From Nonomuraea gerenzanensis (GTDB lineage: Bacteria; Actinomycetota; Actinomycetes; Streptosporangiales; Streptosporangiaceae), in the NCBI RefSeq assembly GCF_020215645.1, contig NZ_CP084058.1, positions 8,308,001 through 8,372,000 on the forward strand: a stretch of 64,000 nucleotides of DNA, read 5' to 3'. The stretch's first letter is position 1. Every line of letters starts with the position of its first letter. Both the position numbers and the translations under genes were made by a program. Positions 22,990-38,359 of this stretch are shown piece after piece. Under the pieces are notes generated by a model. That model saw only the letters and a program-made list of their open reading frames with translations, had not been told where the DNA came from and searched no databases.

Positions 22990-24261
22990 TCAGACCAGTG
23001 CGGGCAGCGGTTTGTCGTGCAGCCACGCGGACAGCAGCGGCCCGACCGGCCGCGAGGTGTGCCGCTGGACGTGCCCGGCGAACTCCCGCGTGGTGACGGT
23101 CCCGTGCCGGTGCTCGGCGGCCCACGAGCGCAGGGCGGCGAAGAACGCCTCCTCGCCCATGGCCCGGCGCAGTGCGTGCAGGGTCAGCGCGCCGCGCTTG
23201 TACACGCGGTCGTCGAACAGCGCCGCCTCGCCGGGGTCGGCCAGGACGAAGTTCTGCGGGAGCAGGGAGAGGCGGTGCCACCACCGGTGGGCGTGGTCGC
23301 CGGCGGGCGGGCCGCCCGACGCCTCGGACCAGAGCCACTCGGCATAGGCCGCGAAGCCCTCCTGCAGCCAGATGTCGCTCCAGCAGGCCACGGTGAGGCT
23401 GTTGCCGAACCACTGGTGCGCCAGCTCGTGCGCGACCAGCCGCTCGCAGCCGCGCACGCCGTCGACGTGGTTGCGGCCGAAGATCGACATGCCCTGGGCC
23501 TCCACCGGGATCTCCAGGTCGTCGTCGGCCACCACGACGGTGTAGCCGGCGAACGGGTAGGGCCCGAACAGGTCGCCGAACAGCGCCATCATCTCGCCCT
23601 GCCGGCCGAAGTCGTGGCGCACCCGGGTGGCCAGCCGGGGCGGGTGGGCCAGCCGGGCGCCGCCGTACTCGGAAATCTGGTAACGCCCGATCTGCACGCT
23701 GGCCAGGTAGCTGGCCATGGGTTCGGCCTGGTCGTAGATCCACGTCGTGGTGCCGGGCCCGCGCCGCCTGGCCACCAGCGCCCCGTTCGCGATCACCTGG
23801 TACGCCGACGCGGTCGTCACCGAGATCCGGTAGGACGCCTTGTCGCCGGGCCGGTCGTTGCAGGGGAACCAGGACGGCGCGCCGATCGGCTGACCGGCCA
23901 CCAGCGCGCCGTCGCTCAGCTCCTCCCAGCCCAGCCCGCCCCAGGGGCTCGGCACCGGCATCGGCTTGCCCGAGTAACGCACCTCCACCACGGCCTGCTC
24001 CCCGGCGGGCAGCGGCCGAGGCGGTGTCACGCGCAGCTTGCCCCGGTCGTGCTGGTAGCGCGCGGCCACGCCGTCCACCGTGACGCCCGAGACCCGGAGC
24101 CTGCCGAAGTCCAGGGACAGCTCGCCGAGGGGCTCGGCGGCCGACACCGTGAGCCGGGCGGTGCCGTCGAGCCGGTTGGCCGCGACCCGGTAGACCAGCC
24201 TCAGGTCGTAGTGCGCGACGCCGTAGCGGTGGTCGCCGTGCCCGGGGAAGTACGGTGTCAT
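22990..24261 (-). CDS. M1-family zinc aminopeptidase coupled to the Pls-like synthetase
   Basis: The 423-residue protein has the gluzincin site HELAH at 278-282 with third ligand Glu301 (H-E-x2-H-x18-E), and a downstream VYKRGALTLHAL with the catalytic Tyr. The GAMEN loop appears as EAQGMSIFG. It is shorter than classic M1 enzymes (~850) because the C-terminal helical domains are reduced. There is no signal peptide. ATG 24261 overlaps the stop of the NRPS-like gene (ATGA), so the two are made together. In epsilon-polylysine producers, polymer-degrading aminopeptidases of this class accompany Pls, so trimming, degradation or self-protection are candidate roles. Confidence 0.85.
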   Translation of the reverse strand: MTPYFPGHGDHRYGVAHYDLRLVYRVAANRLDGTARLTVSAAEPLGELSLDFGRLRVSGVTVDGVAARYQHDRGKLRVTPPRPLPAGEQAVVEVRYSGKPMPVPSPWGGLGWEELSDGALVAGQPIGAPSWFPCNDRPGDKASYRISVTTASAYQVIANGALVARRRGPGTTTWIYDQAEPMASYLASVQIGRYQISEYGGARLAHPPRLATRVRHDFGRQGEMMALFGDLFGPYPFAGYTVVVADDDLEIPVEAQGMSIFGRNHVDGVRGCERLVAHELAHQWFGNSLTVACWSDIWLQEGFAAYAEWLWSEASGGPPAGDHAHRWWHRLSLLPQNFVLADPGEAALFDDRVYKRGALTLHALRRAMGEEAFFAALRSWAAEHRHGTVTTREFAGHVQRHTSRPVGPLLSAWLHDKPLPALV

Positions 24262-27200
24262 CGCCACGCCGAGATCGGGTTGCCGAACCAGCGGGTGCGG
24301 CCCGGCACGTTCTCGCCCCGCATCACCAGGGAGGCCGGGCCGATCGTGGTGTCGGTGCCGACGAGCGAGGCCGGCAGCACCACGCCGTGCGGGCCCAGCG
24401 TCGCGCCCGCCTCGAGCGTGACCGTGTCCATGCTCATGACCCGGTCGTGGAAGAGATGTGTCTGCAGGACGCAGCCCCGGTTGACGCACGCGCCGTCGCC
24501 CAGGGTCACCAGGTCCGCCTCGGGCAGCCAGTACGTGTCACACGTGACCCCATGTCCGATGCGTGCCCCGAGCGAGCGCAGCCACACGTTGAGCGGCGCG
24601 GTTCCCAGCCACGGCTGCGCGAACCAGGGCGCCGCCAGCACCTCGACGAAGTTGTCCGCCAGCTCGTTGCGCCACACGAACGAGCTCCACAACGGCCGGT
24701 TCCCCGCCCTGATGCGGCCGACCAGCACCCACTTGGCGGCCGTCGCGACCGCCGCCGCGACCACGCCCGCGCCCGCCAGGACCGCGCCGCCCAGCGCGAT
24801 CGCCGCGGCGAAGCCGTACAGGGAGGCGAGGGCCTCGAACGCGGCGGCGGCCAGGACGGCGAGCGCGACCGTGCCCATGGCGGGCAGCACGCGGAACGCC
24901 TCGACGAGGGCCCGGGCCGCCCTGTACCGCGCGGGCGGGTCGTAGGTGCGGTTCCTGTCGCCCTCCTCCGCGGTGCGGTGCAGCTTCATGGGCGGCATGC
25001 CGACGTACGAGGAGCCGGACTTGGCCTTCTTCGGCGTCGCCGACAGCACCCCGACCAGCCCGTCCTTGGGCACCTTGCGGCCGGGGGCGGTCATCCCCGA
25101 GTTGCCGAGGAAGGCCCGCTTGCCGATCCGCGCGGTCGCGATGCGCATCCAGCCGCCGTCCAGCTCGTACGGGGCCACCATCGTGTCGTCGGCCAGGAAG
25201 GCGCCGTCGCCCACCGACGTCATCGTGGGCAGCGCGAGCACCGTGGACAGCTCGACGCCCCGGCCCACCTTCATGCCGAGCGCCCGCAGCCACGCGGGGG
25301 TCAGGACGCTGGCGTACAGGGGGAACAGCCACACGCGGGCCGCGGCCATCAGCCGGCCGGTCGCCCAGGCCTGCCACGCCTGGCGGCTGTGCACCGGGTG
25401 CTGCCCGGCGTGCAGGCCCAGGCCGAGCAGCCGCACGCTGGCCAGCGTGAGCAGGGCGAAGGCGGCCATGCCGGCGATCGTCGCAAGCGGCACGCCGGCC
25501 AGGGCGGCGATGAGCGCCTCGCCGAGGGTGCGGGCCTGCCGGGCGAACCAGGCCAGGACCGCGAGGGCCGCCCCGGCCGCGGCGACCGGGAGCAGGCTGA
25601 GCACGAAGGCGGTCACGCCGTACACCGCCGTCCACAGGGCGGAGCGGGCGGCCCGCTCCCCCGGCTTGCGCGACTTGCCCTGCCGGAACGCCGGCACCCC
25701 GGCCCACAGCTCGCCCGACGGCACGCCGCCGGTGACCGCCGACCCGGGCGCCACCTGGGCGTTCTTGCCGATCTTCGTGCCGGGCAGCAGCGTCGAGCGG
25801 GAGCCGACGGTGGCGCCGGCACCGATCCTGATCTCGCCCACGTGCAGCACGTCGCCGTCGTACCAGTGGCCGCTGAGGTCCACCTCCTGCTCGACCGACG
25901 CGCCCCTGCCCACCTTGAGCAGCCCCGTGACGGGCGGCGGCGAGTGCAGGTCGGCGTCGGCGCCCACCTGGGCGCCGAGCAGCCGGGCGTACCAGGTCAT
26001 CCAGGGCGCGCTGGCCAGGTCGGGCACGCCGAGCCTGGCCGCGAACTGCTCCGCGAACCACAGCTTGAGATGGACGGCGCCGCCGCGCGGATGGCTGCCC
26101 GGCCGCACGCCGCGCAGCAGCAGCCGGGCGAGCGCCGCCGACAGGCCGATCCTGCCCATCGGGGTGACGAACGCCAGCGCCCCGAGCGTCACCCACCACC
26201 ACGACAGCGCGGGCGCCCACGGCGGCGCGAGCACGTTGCCGAGCGCGGCCAGCGGCACGATCCAGCGCAGCGCGCCGACGGTGAGCAGCGGCACCATGAG
26301 CAGCGCCTGGATCAGCGCGGCCCGCCGGGGCATGGGCGTCACCGGTGGCCGGGCCGGCTCGGGGTCGCTGCCGATGGCCAGGTGGGCGGCCAGCCCGGCC
26401 AGCGTCGGATGCGCGTACACGTCGCCCACCGCCACGTCCGGGTGGTCGGCGCGCAGCACGGACACCAGCCTGGCCGCGGCGAGACTGGTGCCTCCGGCGG
26501 CGAAGAAGTCGTCGCCGGGCCCGTCCGGAGCCACCCCCAGGATGGCGGTCCACTGCTCGGCCAGCCGCGCCTCGGCGGGGCTCAGCTCCGCGGGGGCCTC
26601 GGCGGACGCGCTCTCCCCGGCCAGCGGCCAGGGCAGCGCGTCGCGGTCGATCTTGCCGGACGTTCTGGTCGGCAGGGACTCGACCGGGGCCAGCCGGGGC
26701 ACCAGCGCGGCGGGCAGCGAGTCGGCGAGCAGCTCACGGGCCTCGCCGGCGTCGAAGCCGGGGCCGGTGACGACGTACCCGACGAGGAGCTGATGACCGC
26801 CGCCCGCCGTACGCACGGCGGCGGCGGCACCCGTGACGCCGGGCAGCGCCTGTAACGCGGCGTCCACCTCACCCAGCTCGATCCGGCGCCCGCCCAGCTT
26901 CACCTGGTCGTCGGCCCTGCCCACGAACACCAGGCCCTCGGGCTCGGCCCTGACCAGGTCGCCGCTGCGGTAGGCGCGGGCCCAGCCCAGCGACGGCAGC
27001 GGCGCGTACTTCTCGGCGTCCTTCGCGGGGTCGAGGTAGCGGGCCAGGCCGACGCCGCCGATGACCAGCTCGCCGGTCTCCCCCATGGCGACCGGCTCGC
27101 CGTCGCCGCCGACCACGGCCAGGTCCCACCCGTCGAGGGGCAGGCCGATGCGTACGGGCTGCCCGCCGGTGAGCGGCGCCGCCGACGCCACGACCGTCGC

Positions 27201-28100
27201 CTCGGTGGGGCCGTAGGTGTTCCACACCTCGCGCCCGGGCACGGCCAGCCGCTCGGCCAGCTCGGGCGGGCACGCCTCCCCGCCGAAGATCAGCAGCCGG
27301 ATCCCGGTGAGGTGCTCGACCGGCCAGAGCGCGGCCAGCGTCGGCACGGTCGAGACGACCGTGATGTCCTTGTCCGCCAGCCAGGGCCCGAGGTCCATCC
27401 CCGTACGCACCAGCGACCTGGGCGCGGGCACCAGGCAGGCGCCGTTGCGCCAGGCCAGCCACATCTCCTCGCACGAGGCGTCGAAGGCCACCGACAGCCC
27501 GGCCAGCACCCGGTCGCCGGGGCCCAGCGGCCGCTCCCGCAGGAACAGCCCGGCCTCGGCGTCCACGAACGCCGCCGCCGACCGGTGCGTCACCGCGACG
27601 CCCTTCGGCTTCCCGGTGGAGCCGGAGGTGAAGATGATCCACGCGTCGTCGTCCGGCGCGGGCGGCCCCTCGCCGGCCCGGCCGCCCTCGCGCACGGTGA
27701 CCTCGCCGGTGATGACCGCGTCCACGCCGGCCTCGGTGAAGACCAGCTCGGCGCGCTCGTCCGGGTCGTCGGCGTCGACCGGCACGTACGCGGCGCCCGC
27801 GGCGAGCACGGCGAGGACGGACAGGTACAACTCGGCCGTCCCGGACGCGACCCGCACGCCCACCCGGGCACCCCGGCCGATCCCGGCCTCCGCCAGCTCC
27901 GCGGCCATCCTGTCCACCTCGGCGCGCAGGTCGCGGTAGGACAGGCGGACGGTGCCGTCGTCCAGCGCGGGCGCGTCGGGGTGCCTGCGCGTGGTCTCGT
28001 CCAGGACGTCGACCAGGGTGCGCGGGGGCGGGGCCAGCACGCCGGCGGGGTAGACCGCGGTCGCGGCCCTGGGACGTACGCCGACCGAGTCGCTACGCAA
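24258..28100 (-). CDS. Pls/PosA-family membrane non-ribosomal peptide synthetase
   Basis: The 1280-residue protein starts at TTG 28100 behind AAGGAG. Residues ~15-490 are an adenylation domain (TSGSTGKPKG 158-167, NTYGPTE 294-300, catalytic Lys483). A carrier domain follows with phosphopantetheine Ser539 (GGTSL). The C-terminal ~680 residues hold six membrane helices in three pairs, each pair followed by a left-handed-helix (hexapeptide-repeat) domain. This is the layout and length of epsilon-poly-L-lysine synthetase, which builds isopeptide homopolymers without a normal condensation domain. Aligning core motifs by eye to GrsA gives the pocket D207 A208 E211 S250 I271 G273 T295 V303 V304 K483, close to Lys codes I remember. 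A cationic homopolymer is inferred. Confidence 0.85.
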   Translation of the reverse strand: MRSDSVGVRPRAATAVYPAGVLAPPPRTLVDVLDETTRRHPDAPALDDGTVRLSYRDLRAEVDRMAAELAEAGIGRGARVGVRVASGTAELYLSVLAVLAAGAAYVPVDADDPDERAELVFTEAGVDAVITGEVTVREGGRAGEGPPAPDDDAWIIFTSGSTGKPKGVAVTHRSAAAFVDAEAGLFLRERPLGPGDRVLAGLSVAFDASCEEMWLAWRNGACLVPAPRSLVRTGMDLGPWLADKDITVVSTVPTLAALWPVEHLTGIRLLIFGGEACPPELAERLAVPGREVWNTYGPTEATVVASAAPLTGGQPVRIGLPLDGWDLAVVGGDGEPVAMGETGELVIGGVGLARYLDPAKDAEKYAPLPSLGWARAYRSGDLVRAEPEGLVFVGRADDQVKLGGRRIELGEVDAALQALPGVTGAAAAVRTAGGGHQLLVGYVVTGPGFDAGEARELLADSLPAALVPRLAPVESLPTRTSGKIDRDALPWPLAGESASAEAPAELSPAEARLAEQWTAILGVAPDGPGDDFFAAGGTSLAAARLVSVLRADHPDVAVGDVYAHPTLAGLAAHLAIGSDPEPARPPVTPMPRRAALIQALLMVPLLTVGALRWIVPLAALGNVLAPPWAPALSWWWVTLGALAFVTPMGRIGLSAALARLLLRGVRPGSHPRGGAVHLKLWFAEQFAARLGVPDLASAPWMTWYARLLGAQVGADADLHSPPPVTGLLKVGRGASVEQEVDLSGHWYDGDVLHVGEIRIGAGATVGSRSTLLPGTKIGKNAQVAPGSAVTGGVPSGELWAGVPAFRQGKSRKPGERAARSALWTAVYGVTAFVLSLLPVAAAGAALAVLAWFARQARTLGEALIAALAGVPLATIAGMAAFALLTLASVRLLGLGLHAGQHPVHSRQAWQAWATGRLMAAARVWLFPLYASVLTPAWLRALGMKVGRGVELSTVLALPTMTSVGDGAFLADDTMVAPYELDGGWMRIATARIGKRAFLGNSGMTAPGRKVPKDGLVGVLSATPKKAKSGSSYVGMPPMKLHRTAEEGDRNRTYDPPARYRAARALVEAFRVLPAMGTVALAVLAAAAFEALASLYGFAAAIALGGAVLAGAGVVAAAVATAAKWVLVGRIRAGNRPLWSSFVWRNELADNFVEVLAAPWFAQPWLGTAPLNVWLRSLGARIGHGVTCDTYWLPEADLVTLGDGACVNRGCVLQTHLFHDRVMSMDTVTLEAGATLGPHGVVLPASLVGTDTTIGPASLVMRGENVPGRTRWFGNPISAWR

Positions 28101-28368
28101 ACGCTGCTCCTTGGAGTCAGGCGGCCGATGCCCTGCACAACATCCGCATCATCCGCGCCGTCGTGGCGTTCGCGCCACCCAAGGCCCAACGGCTGCGGCG
28201 GTCGCGCCTATTCCACTCACTCAGAGGCCATCGAACTCCCGCACGTCAGGCCGAGGGGCGCGACACCCGTGCCCCAGAGGCTCAGTATGCGCCCCATCCG
28301 GCCGTTATCAGGAGGGCCATACCGCCGGCATACTCGCGCCGATCACAATGCCGATCGGAGGTGAACCG
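28101..28368. promoter_or_regulatory. Divergent promoter region between the Pls-like gene and the SARP gene
   Basis: These 268 bp separate the two divergent starts. They include a perfect inverted repeat GTGGCG-TTCG-CGCCAC at 28163-28178 and the ribosome sites AAGGAG (Pls-like) and GGAGGTG (SARP). No further gene is visible. SARP proteins bind direct heptamer repeats near -35; I see no unambiguous pair by eye. Confidence 0.45.
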
Positions 28369-29115
28369 ATGTTCCAACTGTTGGGACGCGTGGCGGTGCT
28401 CGACGGCGAAGGCCGCCCGATCGACGTCCGGGCCGCCAAGCAGCAGGCGATCCTCGCCGTCCTCGTGCTGCGCCCCGGCGCGGTGATCGGCATGGACCGG
28501 CTGATGACGGAGCTCTGGCCGGACGAGCCGCCGGCCACGGCCAGAGCGAGCCTGCAGACCTACGTCTACCGCCTGCGGCGCACCCTGGCCCCGCTCGCCG
28601 CGCACGGCGTCGACCTGCTCACCCTCGGCAACGGCTACACCCTGGTCGTCCCGGATCGGGCGGTGGACGTCAGGGCGTTCGAGCAGCGTTGCGCCCAGGG
28701 GTCGGAGGCGCTGGCCGCGGGCAGCGCGGCGGTGGCGGCCGGGCTGTTGCGGGAGGCGCTAGACCTGTGGCGCGGGCCGCTGGCGCCGGAGATCGACGTG
28801 GAGACCGTCCGCCGTGAGCGCAGGCGCCTGGACCAGGTGCAGCTGACCGCGTCCGAGTTGTGGGTGGAGGCGAAGCTGCAGCTCGGGTTGCACGACCGGG
28901 CGATCCCGGAGCTGGAGTGCCTGGTCGAGGCGCACCCGTTCCGCGAGTCGCTGTGGGAGCTGTTGCTGCGCGCGCTGGCGGCGCGTGGCCGGCGCGCGGA
29001 GGCGCTGGCCGCCTACGGGCGCATGCGGGACATCCTCAGTACGGAGCTCGGCATCGAACCGGCCGACCACCTGCGCCGGCGGCACCAGGACATCCTGCGC
29101 GGCGCGTCGTTCTAG
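28369..29115 (+). CDS. SARP-type regulator (winged helix plus BTAD)
   Basis: The 248-residue protein has an OmpR-like winged helix in residues 1-95 (MFQLLGRVAVLDGEGRPIDV, KQQAILAVLVLRPGAVI, LWPDEPPATARASLQTYVYRLRR). The bacterial transcriptional activator domain follows at ~100-245 (REALDLWRGPLAPEIDVE, YGRMRDILSTELGIEPADHLRR). This is the length of a minimal SARP, a class of pathway-specific activators of actinomycete specialised metabolism. It is divergent from the Pls-like gene and convergent with the Cys-rich peptide operon, so either or both could be its targets; the shared promoter favours the Pls-like gene. Confidence 0.9.
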   Translation: MFQLLGRVAVLDGEGRPIDVRAAKQQAILAVLVLRPGAVIGMDRLMTELWPDEPPATARASLQTYVYRLRRTLAPLAAHGVDLLTLGNGYTLVVPDRAVDVRAFEQRCAQGSEALAAGSAAVAAGLLREALDLWRGPLAPEIDVETVRRERRRLDQVQLTASELWVEAKLQLGLHDRAIPELECLVEAHPFRESLWELLLRALAARGRRAEALAAYGRMRDILSTELGIEPADHLRRRHQDILRGASF

Positions 29116-29164: not shown

Positions 29165-29350
29165 TTACGCGCACTGCTTCCTGATGTAGACCGAGCAGTC
29201 ACTGCGCCAGCACTTGTAGACAGCGCAACAGATGCCACCGCTGCACGTCGTGGTCTGCAGGATGCACCGTTCGGTGCACGCCGCCTGCGCCTCACCTGCC
29301 GGTACGACGAAGGCCACGACGCGGTCCGCCAAGGCACTGATCAACTTCAC
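29165..29350 (-). CDS. Cys-rich precursor peptide 2 (eight cysteines)
   Basis: The 61-residue peptide starts at GTG 29350, 6-9 bp after AAGGGTGGG, 24 bp downstream of peptide 1. The ~23-residue leader (KLISALADRVVAF, VVPAGEAQA) has no long hydrophobic core. It ends in A-Q-A-A-C-T, giving a possible signal-peptidase A-x-A site. The mature part has Cys at 25, 29, 36, 41, 42, 47, 52 and 60. The last four are spaced C-x4-C-x4-C-x7-C exactly as in peptide 1, and both begin CTxRC. Cysteines 36 and 41 are an extra pair. The operon offers an exporter, an S26 peptidase and redox proteins, so a secreted disulfide-rich peptide is inferred. Activity is unknown. Confidence 0.8.
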   Translation of the reverse strand: MKLISALADRVVAFVVPAGEAQAACTERCILQTTTCSGGICCAVYKCWRSDCSVYIRKQCA

Positions 29351-29374
29351 TGTCCCACCCTTCTGCGACCGGCT

Positions 29375-29533
29375 TCACTCGCACACGGTGACCGTGTTGA
29401 CGGTGCAGTCGCCGTTGACGCACCGCATCCTGTAGCACCCGTTGACCGGGCCGCTGACCACCGTGCACCTCGGGGTGCACGCCGCGTCGGCCTTGACCGT
29501 GGGGATCAGCCGGTCGATGAGCTTGTCCAGCAT
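29375..29533 (-). CDS. Cys-rich precursor peptide 1 (six cysteines)
   Basis: The 52-residue peptide starts at ATG 29533 behind GAGGAAGGA, 30 bp after the exporter stop. The leader MLDKLIDRLIPTVKAD is amphipathic and not a Sec signal. A-D-A-A-C-T marks the likely cleavage region, leaving a ~34-residue product. Cys lie at 19, 23, 33, 38, 43 and 51. The framework CTPRC, then C-x4-C-x4-C-x7-C, is shared with peptide 2, so the two are paralogues with diverged loops. No lanthionine, thioether or azoline enzyme is nearby, which favours three disulfides. Bacteriocin, protease inhibitor or signal are all possible. Confidence 0.78.
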   Translation of the reverse strand: MLDKLIDRLIPTVKADAACTPRCTVVSGPVNGCYRMRCVNGDCTVNTVTVCE

Positions 29534-29563
29534 TCCTTCCTCACCTCCCTCCTCTGTCGGGGT

Positions 29564-31402
29564 TCATCTGGGCGCGGTCTCACGGGAGTCCGTCCCGTGA
29601 TAGCCGCGGGCTTGGAGGCGGAAGAGGCGGGCGTAGGTGCCGTCCACCGCCATGAGGTCGTCGTGGCCGCCCCGCTCGGCGACGACGCCGTCGCGCATGA
29701 CGACGATCAGGTCGGCGTCGCGCACGGTGTTCAGCCGGTGGGAGATGAGCAGGCTGGTCCGGCCGGCGCGGTGCTCGCGCATGCGGGCGTGCACCTCGGC
29801 CTCGGCCTCCGGGTCGAGGCCGGAGCTGGGCTCGTCGAGGATCATCAGGTCCCGCCCGTCGCGCAGGAAGGCCCTGGCCAGGGCGGTCCGCTGCCACTGG
29901 CCGCCGGAGAGCACCACGCCGGTCGCGGCGTCCTCCCGGTCCTGCTCGCTGATGAACAGCCGCGTCAGCAGCGTGTCGTAGCCGCGGGGCAGGGCCGCCA
30001 GCAGTTCGTCCACCCCTGCCCGCTGGGCGGCGGCGCGGATCCTGCCCAGGTCGTCGCGGGCGGCGAGGTCTCCCACGCCGATGTTGTCGCGGGCGCTCAG
30101 GTCGTAGGTCATGTGGTCCTGGAAGACGCCGCTGATCCGCTCCCGCAGCGCCTCCGGCCGGACATCGCGCAGGTCCACCCCGTCCCAGAGGATCGTGCCC
30201 CGGCTCGGGTCGTAGAAGCGGCAGAGCAGTTTGACGAGCGTGCTCTTGCCGGCGCCGTTCAGGCCGACGAGGGCCACGGCGGCGCCGTACGGGAGGAGCA
30301 GGTCGACGCCGCGCAGGATCCAGGGATGCTCGTCGCTGTAGCGGAACCACACGTCGCGCAGCTCGATCCCCCGGCGCAGCGGCGGCAGCGGCACGGGCTC
30401 GGCCGGCACCGCGAGGTCGGGCTCTGCCCGGACCACCGCCACGTAGTGGCCGAAGAGCCGCAGGTTGAGATGGCTCAGCGCGATGCCGTTGACCAGGGTG
30501 TCGAGCCCGCCCTGCACCGCGACCACGGCGACGGCGAACATCGACACGTCCCCGGCGGTGAGCGTGCCGGCCCGGGCGGCGGCGATGGCCCAGACGAGCC
30601 CGCCCCCGGCCACCACGGCCGACAGCAGGGCGAGCGCCCCCTCCGCCGACAGCTCCGCGCGGTCCATGCGCCGCTTGCTCGCGTGCGCCGTCGCCAGCTC
30701 GGCCATGAGCCGGCCGCGCAGGAACCCGCCCAGATCGAACAGCCTGATCTCCTTGGCCGCCTCGATCGTGCTGAGCAGGCTGCCGTAGAAGAGCTGCCGC
30801 CGCTCCGCGGGGCCGATCTCCCACATCATGGCCGTACGCCGGCGCGACAGCCGGAGCTGCGCGACGAGGGCCGGAACGGCGGCGCACACCACGACCGCCG
30901 CCATGACCGGGCTGATCACCAGCACGGCCCCGAGGAAGCCGAGCACGCCGACCGCGGAGCGCAGCAGGCCGAACGCCTCGGTGACGATGCCGTCGGCCCT
31001 GGACGTCCCGTCCTGGGCCAGGCGCAGCCGGTCGAGGAAGGGCGGATCCTCGAACGGCCGGAGCCCGGGGAAGCGGGCGGTGGCCGCGAAGAGCCGGTCC
31101 GTCGTGGTGGCCGCCATGGCGCGGCCGAGCTGGTTGCCCAGGTAGCGGGAGCAGTGCGGCAGGATCGCGGCGGCGACGCCGGTGCCCGCCAGGCCCGCGG
31201 CCAGGCCGAGCAGCTCGGCCAGGGACGCCGTCCCGGTGAGGCCGTCGATGACGAGCTTGGTCAGCCAGGCCGTCGCGACCGGCGCCGCGGCGCTGGCCAG
31301 CAGCGTGATCGCGTACCCGGTCATCGGCCAGGCGGCGCCGCTCCAGGCGGTCGCCGCCGCCTCGCGCGCGCAGGTGGTCAGGCGCACCCCGTCAGCGGTC
31401 AT
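29564..31402 (-). CDS. ABC exporter (fused membrane and ATPase domains)
   Basis: The 612-residue half-transporter has an N-terminal six-helix membrane domain (about 20-320). The ATPase domain follows with Walker A VGLNGAGKST, Q-loop GVFQDHMTYDL, signature LSGGQWQRTALARAFL, Walker B LMILDEPSSGLD and the H-loop ISHRL. There is no N-terminal C39 peptidase domain, unlike bacteriocin exporters that also cut the leader. It overlaps the signal-peptidase gene by 11 bp and precedes the two Cys-rich peptides, so it is the likely exporter of those peptides. Confidence 0.9.
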   Translation of the reverse strand: MTADGVRLTTCAREAAATAWSGAAWPMTGYAITLLASAAAPVATAWLTKLVIDGLTGTASLAELLGLAAGLAGTGVAAAILPHCSRYLGNQLGRAMAATTTDRLFAATARFPGLRPFEDPPFLDRLRLAQDGTSRADGIVTEAFGLLRSAVGVLGFLGAVLVISPVMAAVVVCAAVPALVAQLRLSRRRTAMMWEIGPAERRQLFYGSLLSTIEAAKEIRLFDLGGFLRGRLMAELATAHASKRRMDRAELSAEGALALLSAVVAGGGLVWAIAAARAGTLTAGDVSMFAVAVVAVQGGLDTLVNGIALSHLNLRLFGHYVAVVRAEPDLAVPAEPVPLPPLRRGIELRDVWFRYSDEHPWILRGVDLLLPYGAAVALVGLNGAGKSTLVKLLCRFYDPSRGTILWDGVDLRDVRPEALRERISGVFQDHMTYDLSARDNIGVGDLAARDDLGRIRAAAQRAGVDELLAALPRGYDTLLTRLFISEQDREDAATGVVLSGGQWQRTALARAFLRDGRDLMILDEPSSGLDPEAEAEVHARMREHRAGRTSLLISHRLNTVRDADLIVVMRDGVVAERGGHDDLMAVDGTYARLFRLQARGYHGTDSRETAPR

Positions 31403-31832
31403 GCCGCGCCTCCAGCTTCCTCACGGTGACGGCGTGCAGGTCGGCGGCGCGAAAGTAGCCGTGCTGGCGCGAGTCGAAGCTGACCTCGCTGTTGTCACCG
31501 ATCAGGACGAACCTGCCCGCCGGGACGACGTCGTCGGCCACGACCCCGCGCACCCCGTCCGGGACCGGATCGCCCGGCAGGGCGGCGACCCGCTTGATCA
31601 GGAACCTGCTGCCGGTCGAGCGGGGGCTCAGGACGACGGCGACCTGCCCCCTGCGCAGCGCGGCCAGGCCCGCGCGCCGGGACAGGATCCGGTCCCCGTG
31701 GGTCAGCGCCGGGGCCATGCTGTTGCCCCGGACGCGGATCACCACGTACGTCGCCCGCAGCCGGACGACCAGCCCGGCCAGCCCGGCCAGCGCCGCCAGC
31801 CCGCACGCCGCCACGAGTGGCATCCGCCTCAC
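31392..31832 (-). CDS. S26-family signal peptidase of the peptide cluster
   Basis: The ~146-residue protein starts at GTG 31832, overlapping the TlpA-like stop (GTGA); ATG 31823 is an alternative. One N-terminal membrane helix is followed by the S26 catalytic site: Ser38 in RGNSMAPAL and Lys80 in FLIKRVAALPGD. The late motif GDNSEVSFDSRQHG completes it. It is short like Imp/plasmid-type S26 enzymes. Its place just before the exporter suggests it cuts the two peptide precursors outside the membrane at their A-x-A sites, replacing the usual C39 protease; this is inferred. Confidence 0.85.
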   Translation of the reverse strand: MRRMPLVAACGLAALAGLAGLVVRLRATYVVIRVRGNSMAPALTHGDRILSRRAGLAALRRGQVAVVLSPRSTGSRFLIKRVAALPGDPVPDGVRGVVADDVVPAGRFVLIGDNSEVSFDSRQHGYFRAADLHAVTVRKLEARHDR

Positions 31833-32332
31833 GGCGCCTCGACCTCGGCGGGCAGGGTGTGACCTGCGGTGACGACGGTGTGGCCGGCGTCGATCGTGAT
31901 GACCGTCGGGTACGCGCTCACCTTGAACGCCCGCTGCAGCGACCCCTGGGTCGGCTCGGTGACCACCAGCGCCACCTCCGCGAGCCGTTCGACATGAGCG
32001 GTGACGTCCTCCCCCGGACCGGCGGCCACCACGGCGAGCACGCCGTCCGAGGTGCGCCGGGCCCGCTCCACGAAGTGCGGGAGCAGGTCCTCGCAGGGCT
32101 TGCAGCCGTGGGAGAAGAAGCCGACCAGCGCGGGCGCGCCCAGCAGCTCGTCGGAGACCGGCTCGCCACTCGTGGTCATGGCGGCGAACCCCGGCATCCG
32201 CTCGCCGGGCGCGAGCCCGTCCGGCATCGCCGGGCCCTGCTCGCGCAGGCGGCGGATCAGGCCGATGGTCAGCAGCAGGTTCGCCATGCACAGCAGGGCG
32301 AGCAGCACGACGGCGGCGACCAGGTACTGCAT
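31829..32332 (-). CDS. Membrane-anchored TlpA-like thioredoxin
   Basis: The 167-residue protein starts at ATG 32332 with GGGGAGA 5 bp upstream, sharing one base with the MauE-like stop. One membrane helix (3-26) anchors a thioredoxin fold outside the cell. The active site is C77-K-P-C80 in GFFSHGCKPCEDLLPHF, and the cis-Pro loop is VSAYPTVITI. The CKPC sequence is seen in reductase or isomerase-like members. Beside MauE-like and Cys-rich peptide genes, formation or shuffling of peptide disulfides is the obvious role. Confidence 0.85.
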   Translation of the reverse strand: MQYLVAAVVLLALLCMANLLLTIGLIRRLREQGPAMPDGLAPGERMPGFAAMTTSGEPVSDELLGAPALVGFFSHGCKPCEDLLPHFVERARRTSDGVLAVVAAGPGEDVTAHVERLAEVALVVTEPTQGSLQRAFKVSAYPTVITIDAGHTVVTAGHTLPAEVEAP

Positions 32333-32847
32333 CACACTCTCCCCGTTCTGTCCAGGAACAACCCGGCCAGGTCGTCGAAGGCGGCGAACACGACGGCCCC
32401 CGCCAGCCCGGCCGGGATCGCCACCGCCACCGCCCCGGCGGCCGGTGGCCCATGCGAGAAGGCCAGCGCCGTCCCGCCCAGCGCCACCACCAGCAGCAGC
32501 AGGGCGTTGCGCACCAGGTGCACCGGGCCGAGCGGCACCGCGGACGGGCCGAAGCAGCGGCAGGTCATGCGCACGCCCCGCCGGACCGTGCGGGCGATCA
32601 CCAGGGTGAACGCGGCCAGCATGAGCCCGCCGAGCGCCAGGCCCACCCGCGGGATCACCATGAGCGCGGCCGTCGCCGCCTCCCCCGCCGCGACCACGGC
32701 GGCCACCGGGAGGCGCAGCCGCTCCGGCACCGGCACCAGGCCGGCCGCGAACGAGCGCAGGTCCGCGCGGCTGCGCAGCTTGCCGAACGCGGCGATGGCG
32801 AACACGGCACCGAGCAGGACCTGGCACGTGAGGAGCAGGACATCCAC
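32332..32847 (-). CDS. MauE/DoxX-like membrane redox protein
   Basis: The 171-residue protein starts at GTG 32847 and has about four to five membrane helices. Between helices 3 and 4 is C96-R-C98-F-G, the CxC-F-G motif of MauE-type proteins, which support disulfide formation during methylamine dehydrogenase maturation. No methylamine genes are present. As first gene of the peptide operon it could reoxidise the TlpA-like protein using membrane quinone, in the manner of DsbB or VKOR. That electron path is inferred. Confidence 0.8.
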   Translation of the reverse strand: MDVLLLTCQVLLGAVFAIAAFGKLRSRADLRSFAAGLVPVPERLRLPVAAVVAAGEAATAALMVIPRVGLALGGLMLAAFTLVIARTVRRGVRMTCRCFGPSAVPLGPVHLVRNALLLLVVALGGTALAFSHGPPAAGAVAVAIPAGLAGAVVFAAFDDLAGLFLDRTGRV

Positions 32848-32913
32848 GGTCCAGATATTTCCGGACCTCGCTAGCCGGGCCCTGGCGTGCCGCTAGCCCG
32901 GCCCTCGCTCGCC

Positions 32914-32973
32914 GCTCGCCGAACCGCCGCTCGCCGAACCGCCACCCGCCGAACCGCCACCCGCCGAACCACA
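32914..32973 (-). repeat. Four tandem copies of a 15-bp unit upstream of the peptide operon
   Basis: GCTCGCCGAACCGCC at 32914 and 32929 is followed by ACCCGCCGAACCGCC at 32944 and a partial copy at 32959. On the minus strand one frame reads GGSAS/GGSAG repeats after the GntR stop, but no gene uses it. The array lies between the GntR gene and the first gene of the peptide operon. Confidence 0.8.
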
Positions 32974-33026
32974 GCCCGGCGTGGCCGCCCGGCCGATCTT
33001 CCAGACGCTCGCGAAGAACCTCGCCG

Positions 33027-33809: not shown

Positions 33810-34607
33810 ATGCTGATATCGGTTGAGATCCCGGACAGCGCCGAGGCGGCCCAGGCCGGCCTTCAGCGCGGAGCCGTCCCTCTCGGCGGCGGCACCCACC
33901 TGCTGACCAGGACGAACGACGAAGCCGGCCCCGGCCTGCGGCTCGTCAGTCTGCGCAAGGCCGGGCTGCGTGGCATCGACGTGGCCGGCGCCACTGTGAC
34001 CATGGGGGCGGCCACCACGCTGGCCGACGTCGAGGACGACCCCCGGCTGGGCCGGCTCCACCCCTGCGTGCGCTCGATCGCCTCCCCGCCGGTCCGCAAC
34101 CTCGCCACGGTGGCCGGCAACCTGTTCGTGCCGCAGCCGTACGGCGACCTGGCCGCCGCCCTGCTCGCCCTGGACGCGGAGCTGGACGTGCTCGGCCCCG
34201 GCGGCGCGCGGCGCGAGCCGCTGGAACGGGTCGTCAAGGACGGCCTGCCCACCGGCGAGCTGGTGACCGGGATCCGGTTCACCGCTCCGGCGGACGGCAC
34301 GTTCCGGTTCTACAAGGCGAGCAGGCGGCGGCTCAACTCCGGCGCCATCGTCACGGTGGCGGCCCGGATCACGGTCGAGGACGGCCTGGTCGCCGACGTC
34401 CGGCTGGTGCTCGGCGGCCTCGCGCGCCGCCTGGTGCGGGCCGCCGGCGCCGAGCGCGTGCTGCTCGGGGCGCCGCTCACCGCCGGGACCGTCGCCCGGG
34501 CGGCGGTGGCGGACGCCATCGAGCCGTTCGACGACGCCTACGCCTCCGCCTGGTACCGCGCCCGCGTCTACCCCGTCCACCTGCGTCGTGCCCTGCTCGG
34601 GGCCTGA
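33810..34607 (+). CDS. Molybdenum hydroxylase FAD-binding subunit (CoxM/CutM family)
   Basis: The 265-residue protein starts at ATG 33810 after GGGAG. It has the two FAD motifs of this family: AVPLGGGTHLL near residue 25 and NLATVAGNLFVPQPYGD near residue 100. A CO_deh_flav_C-like end follows (RFYKASRRRLNSGAIVTVAARI). It passes electrons from the iron-sulfur subunit to an acceptor. It is the first gene of the operon and is followed after 11 bp by the 2Fe-2S subunit gene. Confidence 0.9.
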   Translation: MLISVEIPDSAEAAQAGLQRGAVPLGGGTHLLTRTNDEAGPGLRLVSLRKAGLRGIDVAGATVTMGAATTLADVEDDPRLGRLHPCVRSIASPPVRNLATVAGNLFVPQPYGDLAAALLALDAELDVLGPGGARREPLERVVKDGLPTGELVTGIRFTAPADGTFRFYKASRRRLNSGAIVTVAARITVEDGLVADVRLVLGGLARRLVRAAGAERVLLGAPLTAGTVARAAVADAIEPFDDAYASAWYRARVYPVHLRRALLGA

Positions 34608-34618
34608 AAGGGGAGCGT

Positions 34619-35110
34619 ATGCCCTCGACCATCGTCACGCTCACGCTGAACGGCACCGAGCGGGAGCTGATCGCCCGCCCCTCGACGACCCTGCTGGACG
34701 CCCTGCGCGAGACGTTCGGGCTGATGGGGGCCAAGCGCGGGTGCGGGCAGGGCGGCTGCGGCAGCTGCACGGTGCTGCTGGACGGCCGGCCCGTGGTCTC
34801 GTGCCTGATCCCCGTCGTGACGGTGGACGGCTCCGCCGTGGAGACGATCGAGGGCCTGGCCGACGGTGACCGGCTCACCGACGTGCAGCAGGCGTTCGTC
34901 GACCACTTCGCCACGCAGTGCGGCTTCTGCACCCCCGGGATGATCATGTCGGCCACGGCGCTGCTCGACCGGGAACCGGACCCGACCCGTCAGGACGTCG
35001 CCGAGGCGATCTGCGGGAACGTCTGCCGCTGCACCGGCTACGAGCCGATCATCACCGCCGTCCTGTCCGCCGCGGCACGCCGCCGCGCCGCCGCGAGGGC
35101 CGACGTGTGA
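34619..35110 (+). CDS. Molybdenum hydroxylase 2Fe-2S subunit (CoxS/CutS family)
   Basis: The 163-residue protein has the plant-ferredoxin cluster in GCGQGGCGSCTVLLDG (Cys42, 47, 50, with Cys62 from VVSC). The second helical cluster is in QCGFCTPGM and CGNVCRCTGY. The length and order are standard. Its ribosome site is AGGGGAG. Its stop overlaps the next start (TGATG), indicating tight coupling with the molybdopterin subunit. Confidence 0.93.
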   Translation: MPSTIVTLTLNGTERELIARPSTTLLDALRETFGLMGAKRGCGQGGCGSCTVLLDGRPVVSCLIPVVTVDGSAVETIEGLADGDRLTDVQQAFVDHFATQCGFCTPGMIMSATALLDREPDPTRQDVAEAICGNVCRCTGYEPIITAVLSAAARRRAAARADV

Positions 35111-36492
35111 TGGGCGGCCGGATCACGCCGATCGACACCGCCTACTTCAAGGGCGAGCGGTCGGGCGGCTTCTCCGTCATCGGCACCGCGGTGCAGCGCT
35201 CGGACGCCCGCGGCCACGTCACCGGCCGCACGGTCTTCTTCGAGGACCTGACGCCGCCGGGCCTGACCCACGTCAAGATCCACCGCTCCACCCGGCACCA
35301 CGCCCGCATCGACCGGGTGGACGTCTCCGGCGCGCTCCAGGTGCCGGGCGTGCTGCGCGTCATCACCCACCGGGACGTGCCGAACAACTGGTACGTCGTG
35401 CTGCGCCTGATCGGGGTCGGCCCCGACGACGAGCCGGTGCTGGCCGAGGACCGGGTCCTGTACCGGGGCGAGCCGATCGTCGCCGTGGTCGCCGAGACCG
35501 AGGAGGCGGCCCGCGAGGGCGCCGCCCGGGTCGTGGTCGACTACACCGACCTGCCCGCCGTGCTCGACGTCGAGGAGGCACTGGCCGAGGGCGCGCCGAT
35601 CATCAAGCAGGCGGGCACCAACCACTTCGTGTACGAGGGCCACCCCTGCCGCCGGATCCGCTTCGGCGACGTCGAGCGGGGCTTCGCCCAGGCGGACCGC
35701 ATCATCGAGGGCCGCTACAGCTCCTCCCCGATCGAGCACGCGCCGACCGAGCCCACCGGCTGCCTCGTCGTCCCCCAGGGCGACGGCCGGCTGCGCATCC
35801 ACAGCAACACCCAGGCCGCCTTCTTCACCCTCGACAACACCGCGCTCATCCTCGGCGTCCCGCCGACCAGCCTGCGCGTGGTCGGCGGCACCGTCGGCGG
35901 CGGCTTCGGCGGCAAGGTGGACGTCATCGTCGAGCCCCTCGCCTGCCTCGCCGCCCTGCTCACCGGCCGGCCCGCCAAGTACGTCTACAGCCGCGCCGAG
36001 GAGATGCAGGTGTCCTCCACCCGGGCGGCCGAGCGCATCCACATCAAGGACGGCGTCATGCGCGACGGCCGGATCGTCGCCCGCCAGGTCACCCTGTACG
36101 TGGACGCCGGCGCCTACTCCCGGCACAGCCCGTACGGCACCACCAAGGCGGCGGCGCACATGCCGGGCCCGTACACGATCCCGAACGTGCACGTGGACTG
36201 CTACTGCGTCTACACCAACCGGACGCCGTCCAGCGCCATGCGCGGGTTCGGCGTCACGATCGGCGACTTCGCGCTGGAGTCGCAGATGGACCACGTCGCC
36301 AGGGAGCTGGGCCTGGACCCGCTGCGGCTGCGGCTCACGAACGCCTACCGGGACGGCGACATGAAGGCACACCGCAAGATCGCGTCAGGCACGGCGCTGG
36401 TCGAGGTGATCCAGAGCGCCGCCGCCCTGGTGGGGCACGAGCTGCCGCCGGAGTACCTGGCGATGTCGTCGGCCGAGCGAGCGGAGGGCTGA
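35110..36492 (+). CDS. Molybdopterin subunit, N-terminal piece (CoxL/XdhB family, split)
   Basis: The 460-residue protein covers the a/b hammerhead domain (residues ~20-140) and the first molybdopterin-binding domain: VGGTVGGGFGGKVDV near 260 and SSAMRGFGVTIGDFALESQMDHVARELGLDPLRLR near 380-415. It ends at TGA 36490-36492 in a hydrophilic linker. Normal family members are ~770-800 residues; the missing half is the next gene. The AMRGFG loop differs from the CSFR loop of CO dehydrogenase, so this is an organic-substrate hydroxylase of unknown substrate. Confidence 0.9.
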   Translation: MGGRITPIDTAYFKGERSGGFSVIGTAVQRSDARGHVTGRTVFFEDLTPPGLTHVKIHRSTRHHARIDRVDVSGALQVPGVLRVITHRDVPNNWYVVLRLIGVGPDDEPVLAEDRVLYRGEPIVAVVAETEEAAREGAARVVVDYTDLPAVLDVEEALAEGAPIIKQAGTNHFVYEGHPCRRIRFGDVERGFAQADRIIEGRYSSSPIEHAPTEPTGCLVVPQGDGRLRIHSNTQAAFFTLDNTALILGVPPTSLRVVGGTVGGGFGGKVDVIVEPLACLAALLTGRPAKYVYSRAEEMQVSSTRAAERIHIKDGVMRDGRIVARQVTLYVDAGAYSRHSPYGTTKAAAHMPGPYTIPNVHVDCYCVYTNRTPSSAMRGFGVTIGDFALESQMDHVARELGLDPLRLRLTNAYRDGDMKAHRKIASGTALVEVIQSAAALVGHELPPEYLAMSSAERAEG

Positions 36493-36495
36493 GCC

Positions 36496-37512
36496 ATGAC
36501 GTTACGGCGGGGCCGCGGATACGCGGCGGTCAACTACCCGACCGGGATGAACCTCGGCGGCGACCCCTCGCAGGCGCTCGTGCACGCCACGACCATGGGC
36601 GGGTTCGTCGTCACGCTCTCCTCGGTGGACCTCGGCCAGGGGCTGCGGACGGTCGTCGCCCAGTGCGCGGCGGAGACGCTCGGCGTCCCGATCGAGAACG
36701 TCATCGTCGACACCGCCGACACCGACACCGGCCCGCACTGCATGGGCACGTTCGCCAGCCGCGGCACTCACCGGGTCGGCAACGCCGTGGTCATGGCGGC
36801 GCGCGAGGCCAGGGAGGTGCTGCTCCAGGTCGCCGCCGACGAGCTGGAGGTGGACGCGGAGGACCTGGAGACCGACGGCACCGGCTTCGTCCGGCTCAAG
36901 GGGGCGGCGGAGAAGAAGATCCACGTCAGCGAGGTCGCGCTCGCCGCGCACTTCCGTCAGGGCAGGACCATCTCCGGCCGGGGCATCTTCCTCAAGGAGC
37001 CGAGCACCCCGGTGCCGGAGACGGGCGAGATGGACCCGGACTCCTGCCAGGCGCACGCGTGCACGGTGGCCGAGGTCGAGGTGGACGACGAGACCGGCGT
37101 CATCGAGGTGCTGCGGCTCTACAACACCTACGAGGTCGGCCGGGCGCTCAATCCGGCCATCGCGACCCAGCAGGTCGAGGGCGGGGCCTGGATGGGGTTG
37201 TCGCACGCGTTGTTCGAGTCGACCGAGCCGTACTATCCGCACTCGCGCGAGCACGGCCCCGTGGACTTCGTCCAGTACCTGATGCCGGGGCCGGCGGACC
37301 TGCCGGAGCAGACCAGCATGCTGCTCGAACGGCCGGCCGACAACGGGCCTTTCGGGGCGAAGGGGATCGGGGAGATGACGGCGAACGCGCCGATCCCGGC
37401 GATCGCCAACGCGGTCTACGACGCGGTCGGCGTCCGGCTGACCAGCATGCCGTTCACCCCCGAGAAGGTGCTGCGCGGGCTCGACGAGCTGCGGGCCGGC
37501 CGTGCCGGCTGA
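36496..37512 (+). CDS. Molybdopterin subunit, C-terminal piece (CoxL/XdhB family, split)
   Basis: The 338-residue protein starts at ATG 36496, three bases after the previous stop, with GGAGGG upstream. It contains the second molybdopterin-binding domain: SSVDLGQGLRTVVAQCAAETLGV, TDTGPHCMGTFASRGT, and NGPFGAKGIGEMTANAPIPAIANAV, where the Glu in KGIGE is the expected catalytic base. Together the two pieces sum to 798 residues, one full subunit. The break falls between domains and has its own ribosome site, so a genuine two-chain subunit is more likely than a pseudogene. Confidence 0.88.
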   Translation: MTLRRGRGYAAVNYPTGMNLGGDPSQALVHATTMGGFVVTLSSVDLGQGLRTVVAQCAAETLGVPIENVIVDTADTDTGPHCMGTFASRGTHRVGNAVVMAAREAREVLLQVAADELEVDAEDLETDGTGFVRLKGAAEKKIHVSEVALAAHFRQGRTISGRGIFLKEPSTPVPETGEMDPDSCQAHACTVAEVEVDDETGVIEVLRLYNTYEVGRALNPAIATQQVEGGAWMGLSHALFESTEPYYPHSREHGPVDFVQYLMPGPADLPEQTSMLLERPADNGPFGAKGIGEMTANAPIPAIANAVYDAVGVRLTSMPFTPEKVLRGLDELRAGRAG

Positions 37513-38359
37513 CCAGGAGACGCTGGGCCGGCGGCTGGGCGAGGAGGGCTACCTGGCCGACGAGGGCCTGCTCACCGCCGTCCACCTGGCCGGGGTGCTC
37601 GGGCTTCCGCTGCTCCTGGAGGGGGAGCCGGGGGTCGGCAAGACGGAGGTGGCCAACGTCCTGGCCCGGGTCCTCGGCCGCGAGCTGATCCGGCTGCAGT
37701 GTTACGAGGGGCTGGACGCCTCCCAGGCCCTGTACGAGTGGGACTACCCGAAGCAACTGCTGTCGCTGCGGGCCGCCGAGGTCGAGGGGCGCGGCGTCGG
37801 CGACCTGTACCGCGAGGAGTTCCTCCTGCAGCGCCCGCTGCTGCGCGCGCTGCGGGCGGCCTCCGGCGCGGTGCTGCTGATCGACGAGATCGACCGCGCG
37901 GACAGCGAGTTCGAGGCGTTCCTGCTGGAGTTCCTCGGTGACTTCCAGATCACCGTCCCTGAGCTGGGCACCATCAGGGCGCAGAGCGTCCCGTTCGTCG
38001 TCCTCACCTCGAACCGGACCCGCGAGCTGCACGACGCGCTCAAGCGCCGCTGCCTGTACCACTGGATCCCCTTCCCCGACGCCGAGCGGGAGCAGGCGAT
38101 CCTCCAGGCGCAGGCGCCCGGCCTGGACGCCAGGAGCGCGGCCCGGCTCGTGGCCGCCGTGCACCGCATCCGCGGGCTGGCGCTGCTGAAGCGGCCCGGC
38201 ATCGCGGAGTCGGCCTCCTGGGCCCGCGGCGTGCAGGCGCTGGCGGGCGAGGGCGCGGGCTGGCCGGAGGCGATGCGCCGGGCGGCGGGGCTGCTCGTCA
38301 AGCACGAGGAGGACCTGGCCCTGGTCAGGCAGCATGCCGCGGAGGTGTTCGGTGACTGA
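37502..38359 (+). CDS. MoxR-type AAA+ ATPase (CoxD-like)
   Basis: The 285-residue protein starts at GTG 37502, overlapping the hydroxylase end by 11 bp. It has Walker A GEPGVGKT at 41-48, Walker B AVLLIDEIDRAD, sensor 1 FVVLTSNRTREL and an arginine-finger region LKRRCLYHWIPFPD. In CO dehydrogenase operons CoxD works with the VWA protein CoxE to finish the molybdenum active site; the same pair follows here, so cofactor maturation of the hydroxylase is the likely role. Confidence 0.9.
   Translation: MPADQETLGRRLGEEGYLADEGLLTAVHLAGVLGLPLLLEGEPGVGKTEVANVLARVLGRELIRLQCYEGLDASQALYEWDYPKQLLSLRAAEVEGRGVGDLYREEFLLQRPLLRALRAASGAVLLIDEIDRADSEFEAFLLEFLGDFQITVPELGTIRAQSVPFVVLTSNRTRELHDALKRRCLYHWIPFPDAEREQAILQAQAPGLDARSAARLVAAVHRIRGLALLKRPGIAESASWARGVQALAGEGAGWPEAMRRAAGLLVKHEEDLALVRQHAAEVFGD

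Follow-up and report, generated by a model that had tools for sequence, protein, structure and literature searches.

A redox, signal peptidase and export cassette linked to two cysteine-rich peptide precursors in Nonomuraea gerenzanensis, and its probable role in making disulfide-rich secreted peptides

Results

We analyzed a window of 64,000 nucleotides from Nonomuraea gerenzanensis (contig NZ_CP084058.1, positions 8,308,001 to 8,372,000 of the forward strand), in which six minus-strand genes form a compact operon. In the order of transcription, they encode a MauE-type redox membrane protein (32332-32847), a membrane-anchored thioredoxin-fold protein of the TlpA/ResA/MauD kind with a CKPC motif (31829-32332), an S26 signal peptidase that is likely the leader peptidase (31392-31832), an MsbA/ABCB-like ATP-binding cassette (ABC) exporter of 612 residues (29564-31402) and two small precursors, P1 (29375-29533) and P2 (29165-29350). 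The first four genes overlap by 1, 4 and 11 nt and are followed by gaps of 30 and 24 nt. This spacing and the domain matches given below agree with the six-gene operon described in the original prediction, with one correction: MauE, S26 and P2 start at GTG. P1 has 52 amino acids and 6 cysteines, with a predicted 17-residue leader, MLDKLIDRLIPTVKADA, and a 35-residue core. P2 has 61 amino acids and 8 cysteines, and its predicted 23-residue leader ends in AQA before a 38-residue core. A GC-rich hairpin on the same strand 3' of P2 (29121-29159; -34.9 kcal/mol, z -3.69) is a possible terminator; it was not called in a scan for consensus terminators.

P1 and P2 are conserved and under purifying selection. 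Both genes recur 3' of the exporter in Streptosporangium sp. KLBMP 9127, Nonomuraea sp. G32, N. deserti and N. fuscirosea (loci L004-L007), and N. ceibae (L008) carries diverged versions. The ratio of the proportions of nonsynonymous and synonymous differences (pN/pS), computed over same-length pairs only, was 0.51 for P1 (12 sequences) and 0.35 for P2 (10 sequences). When the parts were taken separately, the leader of P1 scored 0.13 versus 0.64 for its core, and leader and core were alike in P2 (0.39 versus 0.32). P2 accompanied the P1-type gene in 9 of the 10 first-search loci that carry one, within the 3 kb examined at each (L010-L019). On synteny and pN/pS we rejected chance open reading frames (ORFs), and the two genes are genuine precursors, as had been claimed; a lack of conserved small frames beside the four larger genes had been named as grounds to abandon the idea, and the frames turned out to be conserved. 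AlphaFold modeled each core as a three-stranded sheet, with predicted local distance difference test (pLDDT) scores by block of 82-89 for the P1 core and of 84-90 from residue 31 onward for P2. These models rest on only five or six sequences, and the leader helices (51-58 in P1, 42 in P2) are unreliable. A fold search with P2 returned no convincing match among solved structures.

MauE matched PF07291 with 79.8 bits (cut-off 27) and carries a CRCF motif in its third loop; the corresponding CxCF motif is kept in 57 of the 58 family members examined. The S26 protein matched PF10502 (64.8 bits) and TIGR02227 (67.5 bits, cut-off 47), and its serine and lysine motifs are kept in 69/69 family members examined. 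The exporter is MsbA-like and matched ABC_tran with 94.9 bits. A domain scan found no C39 peptidase domain in it, and the leaders of P1 and P2 have no double glycine before the core, which excludes the C39/double-glycine class of bacteriocins exported by peptidase-containing ABC transporters (PCATs). The TlpA-like protein scored just under the cut-off of AhpC-TSA (24.8 bits against 26) and far below those of the ResA and MauD models; it is 43-75% identical to six relatives from other cassettes. Across the TlpA rows of the family the CxxC motif is mostly kept (64/68 rows in the two cysteine columns). Its nearest solved relatives are ResA proteins.

No class-defining enzyme of lanthipeptide, lasso peptide, sactipeptide or YcaO biosynthesis was found among 9 proteins of the operon region and 20 flanking ORFs. 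Over this range the predicted absence of a classical enzyme for ribosomally synthesized and post-translationally modified peptides (RiPPs) is upheld, and we rejected the lanthipeptide and lasso classes on the same grounds.

The helper genes travel with the precursors. We collected 69 loci around precursor-profile matches, 23 clusters from a search with a 14-precursor profile and 46 from a search with a 21-row profile. P1/P2-type clusters already known, most matches weaker than ~1e-3 and second precursors of the same cluster were set aside, as were cluster G445:C68:55262 and two later-added G011 clusters. Counted with profiles built from these same 69 loci, the ABC exporter was present in 67, S26 in 64, TlpA in 62 and MauE, the loosest member, in 54; all four were present in 50 loci and none in one. 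The precursor frame lay at a median distance of 101 nt from the nearest helper domain (<500 nt in 79 of 87 cases), and two more frames had no helper. Gene order varied; when five reference loci were added to the 69, TlpA and ABC shared a strand in 63/66 loci, MauE and TlpA in 56/58 and S26 and ABC in 51/68. Five further MauE regions of the window's genome (L139-L143) served as a control: the precursor, S26 and ABC genes of the family were absent from all, and a TlpA-like match appeared in one. Modification, export and leader-removal genes are thus linked to the precursor as in RiPP clusters, and the redox, protease and export set that had been predicted beside the precursors was recovered at most loci. 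One comparison of neighbors revealed no recurrent fifth gene. At one locus (L100) four consecutive precursors are accompanied by no more than a weak ABC match, and maturation in trans is possible there.

We followed the precursors through the genomes. The 14-precursor profile had matches in 30 of 98 related genomes, 28 of them among the 54 of the window's own genus; the two matches outside the genus were judged false. With the 21-row profile, matches were found in 44 of 393 genomes of the class (E 0.01); several weak ones had no partner genes on inspection, and most other matches weaker than ~1e-3 lay outside the inspection. A 38-row profile (E 0.001) matched 19 of 61 Streptosporangiaceae, the window's family, 42 of 248 genomes of a second family (f20) and 5 of 396 across the phylum. 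We take f20 to be Streptomycetaceae, as the precursor at L169 (genus g142) resembles a precursor from Embleya (L192). Matches inspected and rejected for want of partner genes were L134 and L174 within f20 and L034, L039, L067, L068 and L175 outside both families. L132, from a third family (f21), is a real exception: it has an ABC gene and a natural fusion of MauE (CRCF) to TlpA (CRAC) in a single frame (6993-7979). Plasmid records under the names Streptomyces clavuligerus, S. nigrescens and Embleya each contain a precursor with all four helpers; the S. clavuligerus annotation lists both its precursors and its TlpA-like protein as hypothetical. Cassettes of this type form a large and varied actinobacterial family.

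The window's genome itself holds a second cassette (L003, at ~5.54 Mb of contig 1), with the same helpers and a different, 22-residue core with 4 cysteines. Upstream of it, on the other strand, is a gene common to five loci (L003, L070, L071, L075 and L085), which we take to resemble a LuxR-type regulator.

What unites the precursors is the leader. It has the approximate form LxDRLLxRLxP-x3-AxA and is followed by a hypervariable core, the arrangement of a RiPP precursor; by pN/pS the difference between the two parts is seen in P1, whereas in P2 they are alike. Aspartate occupies position -8 from the proline in 108/123 leaders and arginine or lysine position -7 in 109/123, with hydrophobic positions between. 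Cores were cut by the proline/AxA pattern and taken to begin directly after AxA, so the frequencies of the proline and of AxA are partly circular; at least four leaders lack the proline (L169, L170, L192 and L132). The first 89 cores ranged from 22 to 75 residues and also varied in sequence and cysteine spacing. The motif proposed earlier, CTxRC...C-x4-C-x4-C-x7-C, describes the P1 subfamily and does not extend to the family as a whole, for which the leader is the shared trait. Because the cassette and the conserved leader recur with hypervariable cores, one generic machine seems, on this sequence evidence, to serve many different cores.

Nearly all cores have an even number of cysteines. We counted 4, 6, 8, 10 or 12 cysteines, and 2 in one truncated-looking copy, in 172 of 175 unique cores; 171 were even as scored, and one more (L204, 5238) was recounted by hand since the pattern had cut inside its core. 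In this set the false match L039 was dropped, the truncated-looking copy (L214) was counted as is, the precursors of L190-L192 were not added, and L132, whose leader lacks the pattern, was left out (8 cysteines by eye). The first batch, taken at 70% similarity, gave 79/83 even cores with the false match scored as odd, and of 47 new cores added later, most of them from genomes unused before, 46 were even as scored and 47 after the recount. Between 5 and 10 cysteines, 156 of 159 scored cores were even versus 92 of the 264 remaining small ORFs at these loci. Among all other small ORFs with at least 4 cysteines the proportion was 342/517, a value inflated by setting the cut at four, and formal probabilities for the parity would be too strong given the shared ancestry of the cores. 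Even parity nonetheless implies paired cysteines, which appear to come and go two at a time. The only odd pair seen is at L074, where a single cassette lies between two homologous 7-cysteine precursors; a covalent (hetero)dimer of the two is possible.

The scanned flanks of the operon have ordinary gene content. A gene for a regulator of the Streptomyces antibiotic regulatory protein (SARP) family, with BTAD and Trans_reg_C matches, lies on the plus strand at 28369-29115, convergent to the operon; we chose its start within an ORF spanning 28111-29115. A SARP counterpart was found near 6 compared loci, where it was visible through an antisense frame that we interpreted as SARP, and the protein is a possible regulator of the peptide operon. 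The SARP gene sits between the operon and a gene for a Pls/PosA-type protein resembling nonribosomal peptide synthetases (24258-28100; TIGR02353, 705 bits), and an M1 peptidase gene is on the same flank. The opposite flank holds a GntR regulator gene and a CO/xanthine dehydrogenase-like molybdopterin dehydrogenase set (33810-39467) with an AAA ATPase and a CoxE-like protein. GC-rich short repeats resembling GGTTCGGCGGGTGGC lie at 32890-33000, between the GntR gene and MauE.

Discussion

Taken together, these results make it likely that the operon produces two secreted peptides, ribosomally made and rich in disulfides, with dedicated ABC export, S26 cleavage and TlpA/MauE disulfide chemistry. 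The exporter would recognize the leader and move the precursor across the membrane, and S26 would cleave after AxA to free the 35-residue core of P1 or the 38-residue core of P2. Three disulfides in P1 and four in P2 would be made or corrected by the TlpA-like protein, for which MauE would act as redox partner in the membrane. The calculated masses of the cores so oxidized are 3700.58 Da (P1) and 4213.82 Da (P2), versus 3706.63 and 4221.88 Da in reduced form. Disulfide bonding would be the main modification, as no further modifying enzyme was found in the set. For the use of the peptides, a bacteriocin-like role is our best guess because the cores are hypervariable and P1 and P2 occur together.

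Several observations weigh against this reading. The MauE gene next to TlpA is damaged in three close relatives: L004 has an internal deletion in it, L006 a truncated copy, and in L007 little of it is left, so the set of six is present here and is not intact everywhere. All three loci retain TlpA, S26, ABC and both peptides, and the local MauE is therefore dispensable there. In the window's genome six genes score above the MauE family cut-off, and so another genomic copy may stand in where the local one is lost. Some precursors appear to have no helpers at all: in a further 40 loci, all four helpers were present in 18 and none in 9 within the stretch examined. The precursor of one of the 9, L215, was not recovered on re-scan; the other helper-less loci are L193, L197, L206, L209, L211, L213, L214 and L230. 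Such orphan precursors may be matured in trans. Three cores are odd, the two 7-cysteine cores of L074 and one 9-cysteine core at L170. The CKPC motif and the kinship to ResA suit a reductase or an isomerase as well as an oxidase, and because of them these roles of TlpA are inseparable here; ResA proteins are reductases. One comparison of neighbors showed no constant immunity gene, and a product or mechanism for the family was not found in the open-access literature searched.

The charge pattern of the redox proteins also counts against folding outside the membrane, as the original prediction had it. In 64 of 67 TlpA proteins, lysines and arginines are more numerous immediately behind the membrane helix than ahead of it. 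In 57 MauE proteins, with loops assigned by hydropathy and fractions taken per five-residue bin, the lysine/arginine fraction was 0.14-0.30 in loop 1 and 0.08-0.36 in loop 3, which holds the CxC motif, versus 0.03-0.08 in loop 2 and 0.00-0.03 in loop 4. By the positive-inside rule, this bias suggests that the redox sites of both proteins are on the cytoplasmic face. For the combination of oxidative folding, export and leader cleavage put forward earlier, the even parity supports disulfides, the outside location is in doubt, and MauE is not kept at every locus.

Could the MauE-TlpA pair face the cytoplasm and act before export, either by oxidizing the peptide on the inner face or by holding the precursor reduced until it is exported? 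The charge bias in both proteins speaks for this arrangement, and the L132 fusion, as read from its sequence, would place the CxC loop and the thioredoxin domain on the same side. However, the positive-inside rule is a rule of thumb, and the conserved RRLR may have another cause. The bacterial cytoplasm is reducing, and the active sites of S26 peptidases are on the outer side. The genome also encodes two further CxxC proteins (L182 and L185) that look by eye like ordinary exported lipoproteins, though they are not close homologues. We consider the arrangement possible, if somewhat unlikely. A bolder version, in which the peptides form a new class, a cytoplasm-facing TlpA-MauE relay oxidizes them before or during ABC export, a private signal peptidase releases them and the odd cysteines of rare members such as the L074 pair link a covalent dimer, seems to us doubtful.

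The remaining alternatives concern the leader and the cysteines. If the leader were an ordinary Sec signal, the peptides would be Sec-secreted defensin-like proteins and the ABC protein would serve another purpose such as immunity. Signal peptidase I usually cuts at AxA, and the P2 leader is fairly hydrophobic (VVAFVVP), but the P1 leader has 17 residues with an internal aspartate and arginine, charged residues are conserved at -8 and -7 inside the leaders of the family, and a dedicated S26 would be superfluous, all of which makes this alternative unlikely. The cysteines might instead bind zinc or copper, the cassette being a metal-trafficking set: counts of 4, 6 and 8 also suit metal sites, and TlpA/ResA-like proteins serve cytochrome and copper maturation. 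The hypervariable cysteine spacing, the linked redox proteins, the small leader-cleaved cores and the strand-rich models render metal binding quite improbable. That the peptides are lanthipeptides or other known enzyme-modified RiPPs, with the enzyme encoded elsewhere, would suit the abundance of serine, threonine and cysteine in many cores. We regard this as very improbable indeed, since such an enzyme is missing from the scanned operon-region and flanking proteins, no fifth gene recurs in the one comparison of neighbors, and thioether chemistry would not predict even parity.

The peptides favored by our analysis, made ribosomally and guided by a leader, are outside any named class. The only paper combining MauE and RiPPs in the open-access literature searched describes decRiPPter (Kloosterman et al. 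2020, PMC7794033), whose strict filter required a transporter, a peptidase and a regulator. It reports three MauE candidate families in Streptomyces, one of them also with MauD, beside precursors with at least 8 cysteines, proposes that the MauE-family genes modify the precursors and suggests a disulfide role for MauE. The present operon resembles these families in having MauE beside cysteine-rich precursors, P2 with 8 cysteines among them, a comparison made by description. In the portions of PMC7794033 available to us, neither a leader motif nor S26 appears, and cysteine parity, a mechanism and a product are likewise absent. On that partial account, the decRiPPter MauE families are probably an earlier sight of the present family.

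The closest worked-out analogue that we have seen, from a partial view of its description, is TMcin (PMC13252029), in which a leader, a dedicated DsbA-like thiol oxidoreductase, ABC export and a dedicated protease are likewise combined in one cluster and the disulfide is required for activity. According to the same source, TMcin is a staphylococcal transmembrane-helix peptide with one disulfide, an S2P protease and a separate ABC ATPase and permease; here the cores are modeled as beta sheets, the protease is S26 and the oxidoreductase is TlpA/ResA-like. The idea that the operon follows a logic different from known systems is weakened in that decRiPPter partly anticipated it (PMC7794033) and the TMcin set is analogous (PMC13252029), as far as these sources were available.

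Other relatives are more distant. Sublancin-type glycocins and pediocin-like bacteriocins also combine an accessory thiol oxidoreductase with ABC export of a small peptide, but they use C39/double-glycine leader processing and have few disulfides, and glycocins are glycosylated. The laterosporulins, which are bacteriocins, are also among the closest known systems. The methylamine dehydrogenase system pairs MauE with a MauD/TlpA-like partner, and MauE has been speculated to form disulfides in the beta-subunit of that enzyme (PMC7794033, in the part seen). Its substrate is an enzyme subunit, unlike the peptides here. To our knowledge, leader peptides, an ABC exporter or an S26 protein of the present kind do not take part in the maturation of methylamine dehydrogenase.

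If our reading is right, leader-guided folding of cores with 4 to 12 cysteines of widely differing spacing would give bacteria an equivalent of the factories that make venom peptides. The family would then offer a naturally occurring collection of disulfide scaffolds, a means of producing them and a possible source of bioactive compounds. MauE/MauD-type proteins, whose roles are described as unclear in the part of PMC7794033 available to us, would gain a small, testable substrate, and the plasmid copies of S. clavuligerus make the cassette tractable in a workable strain.

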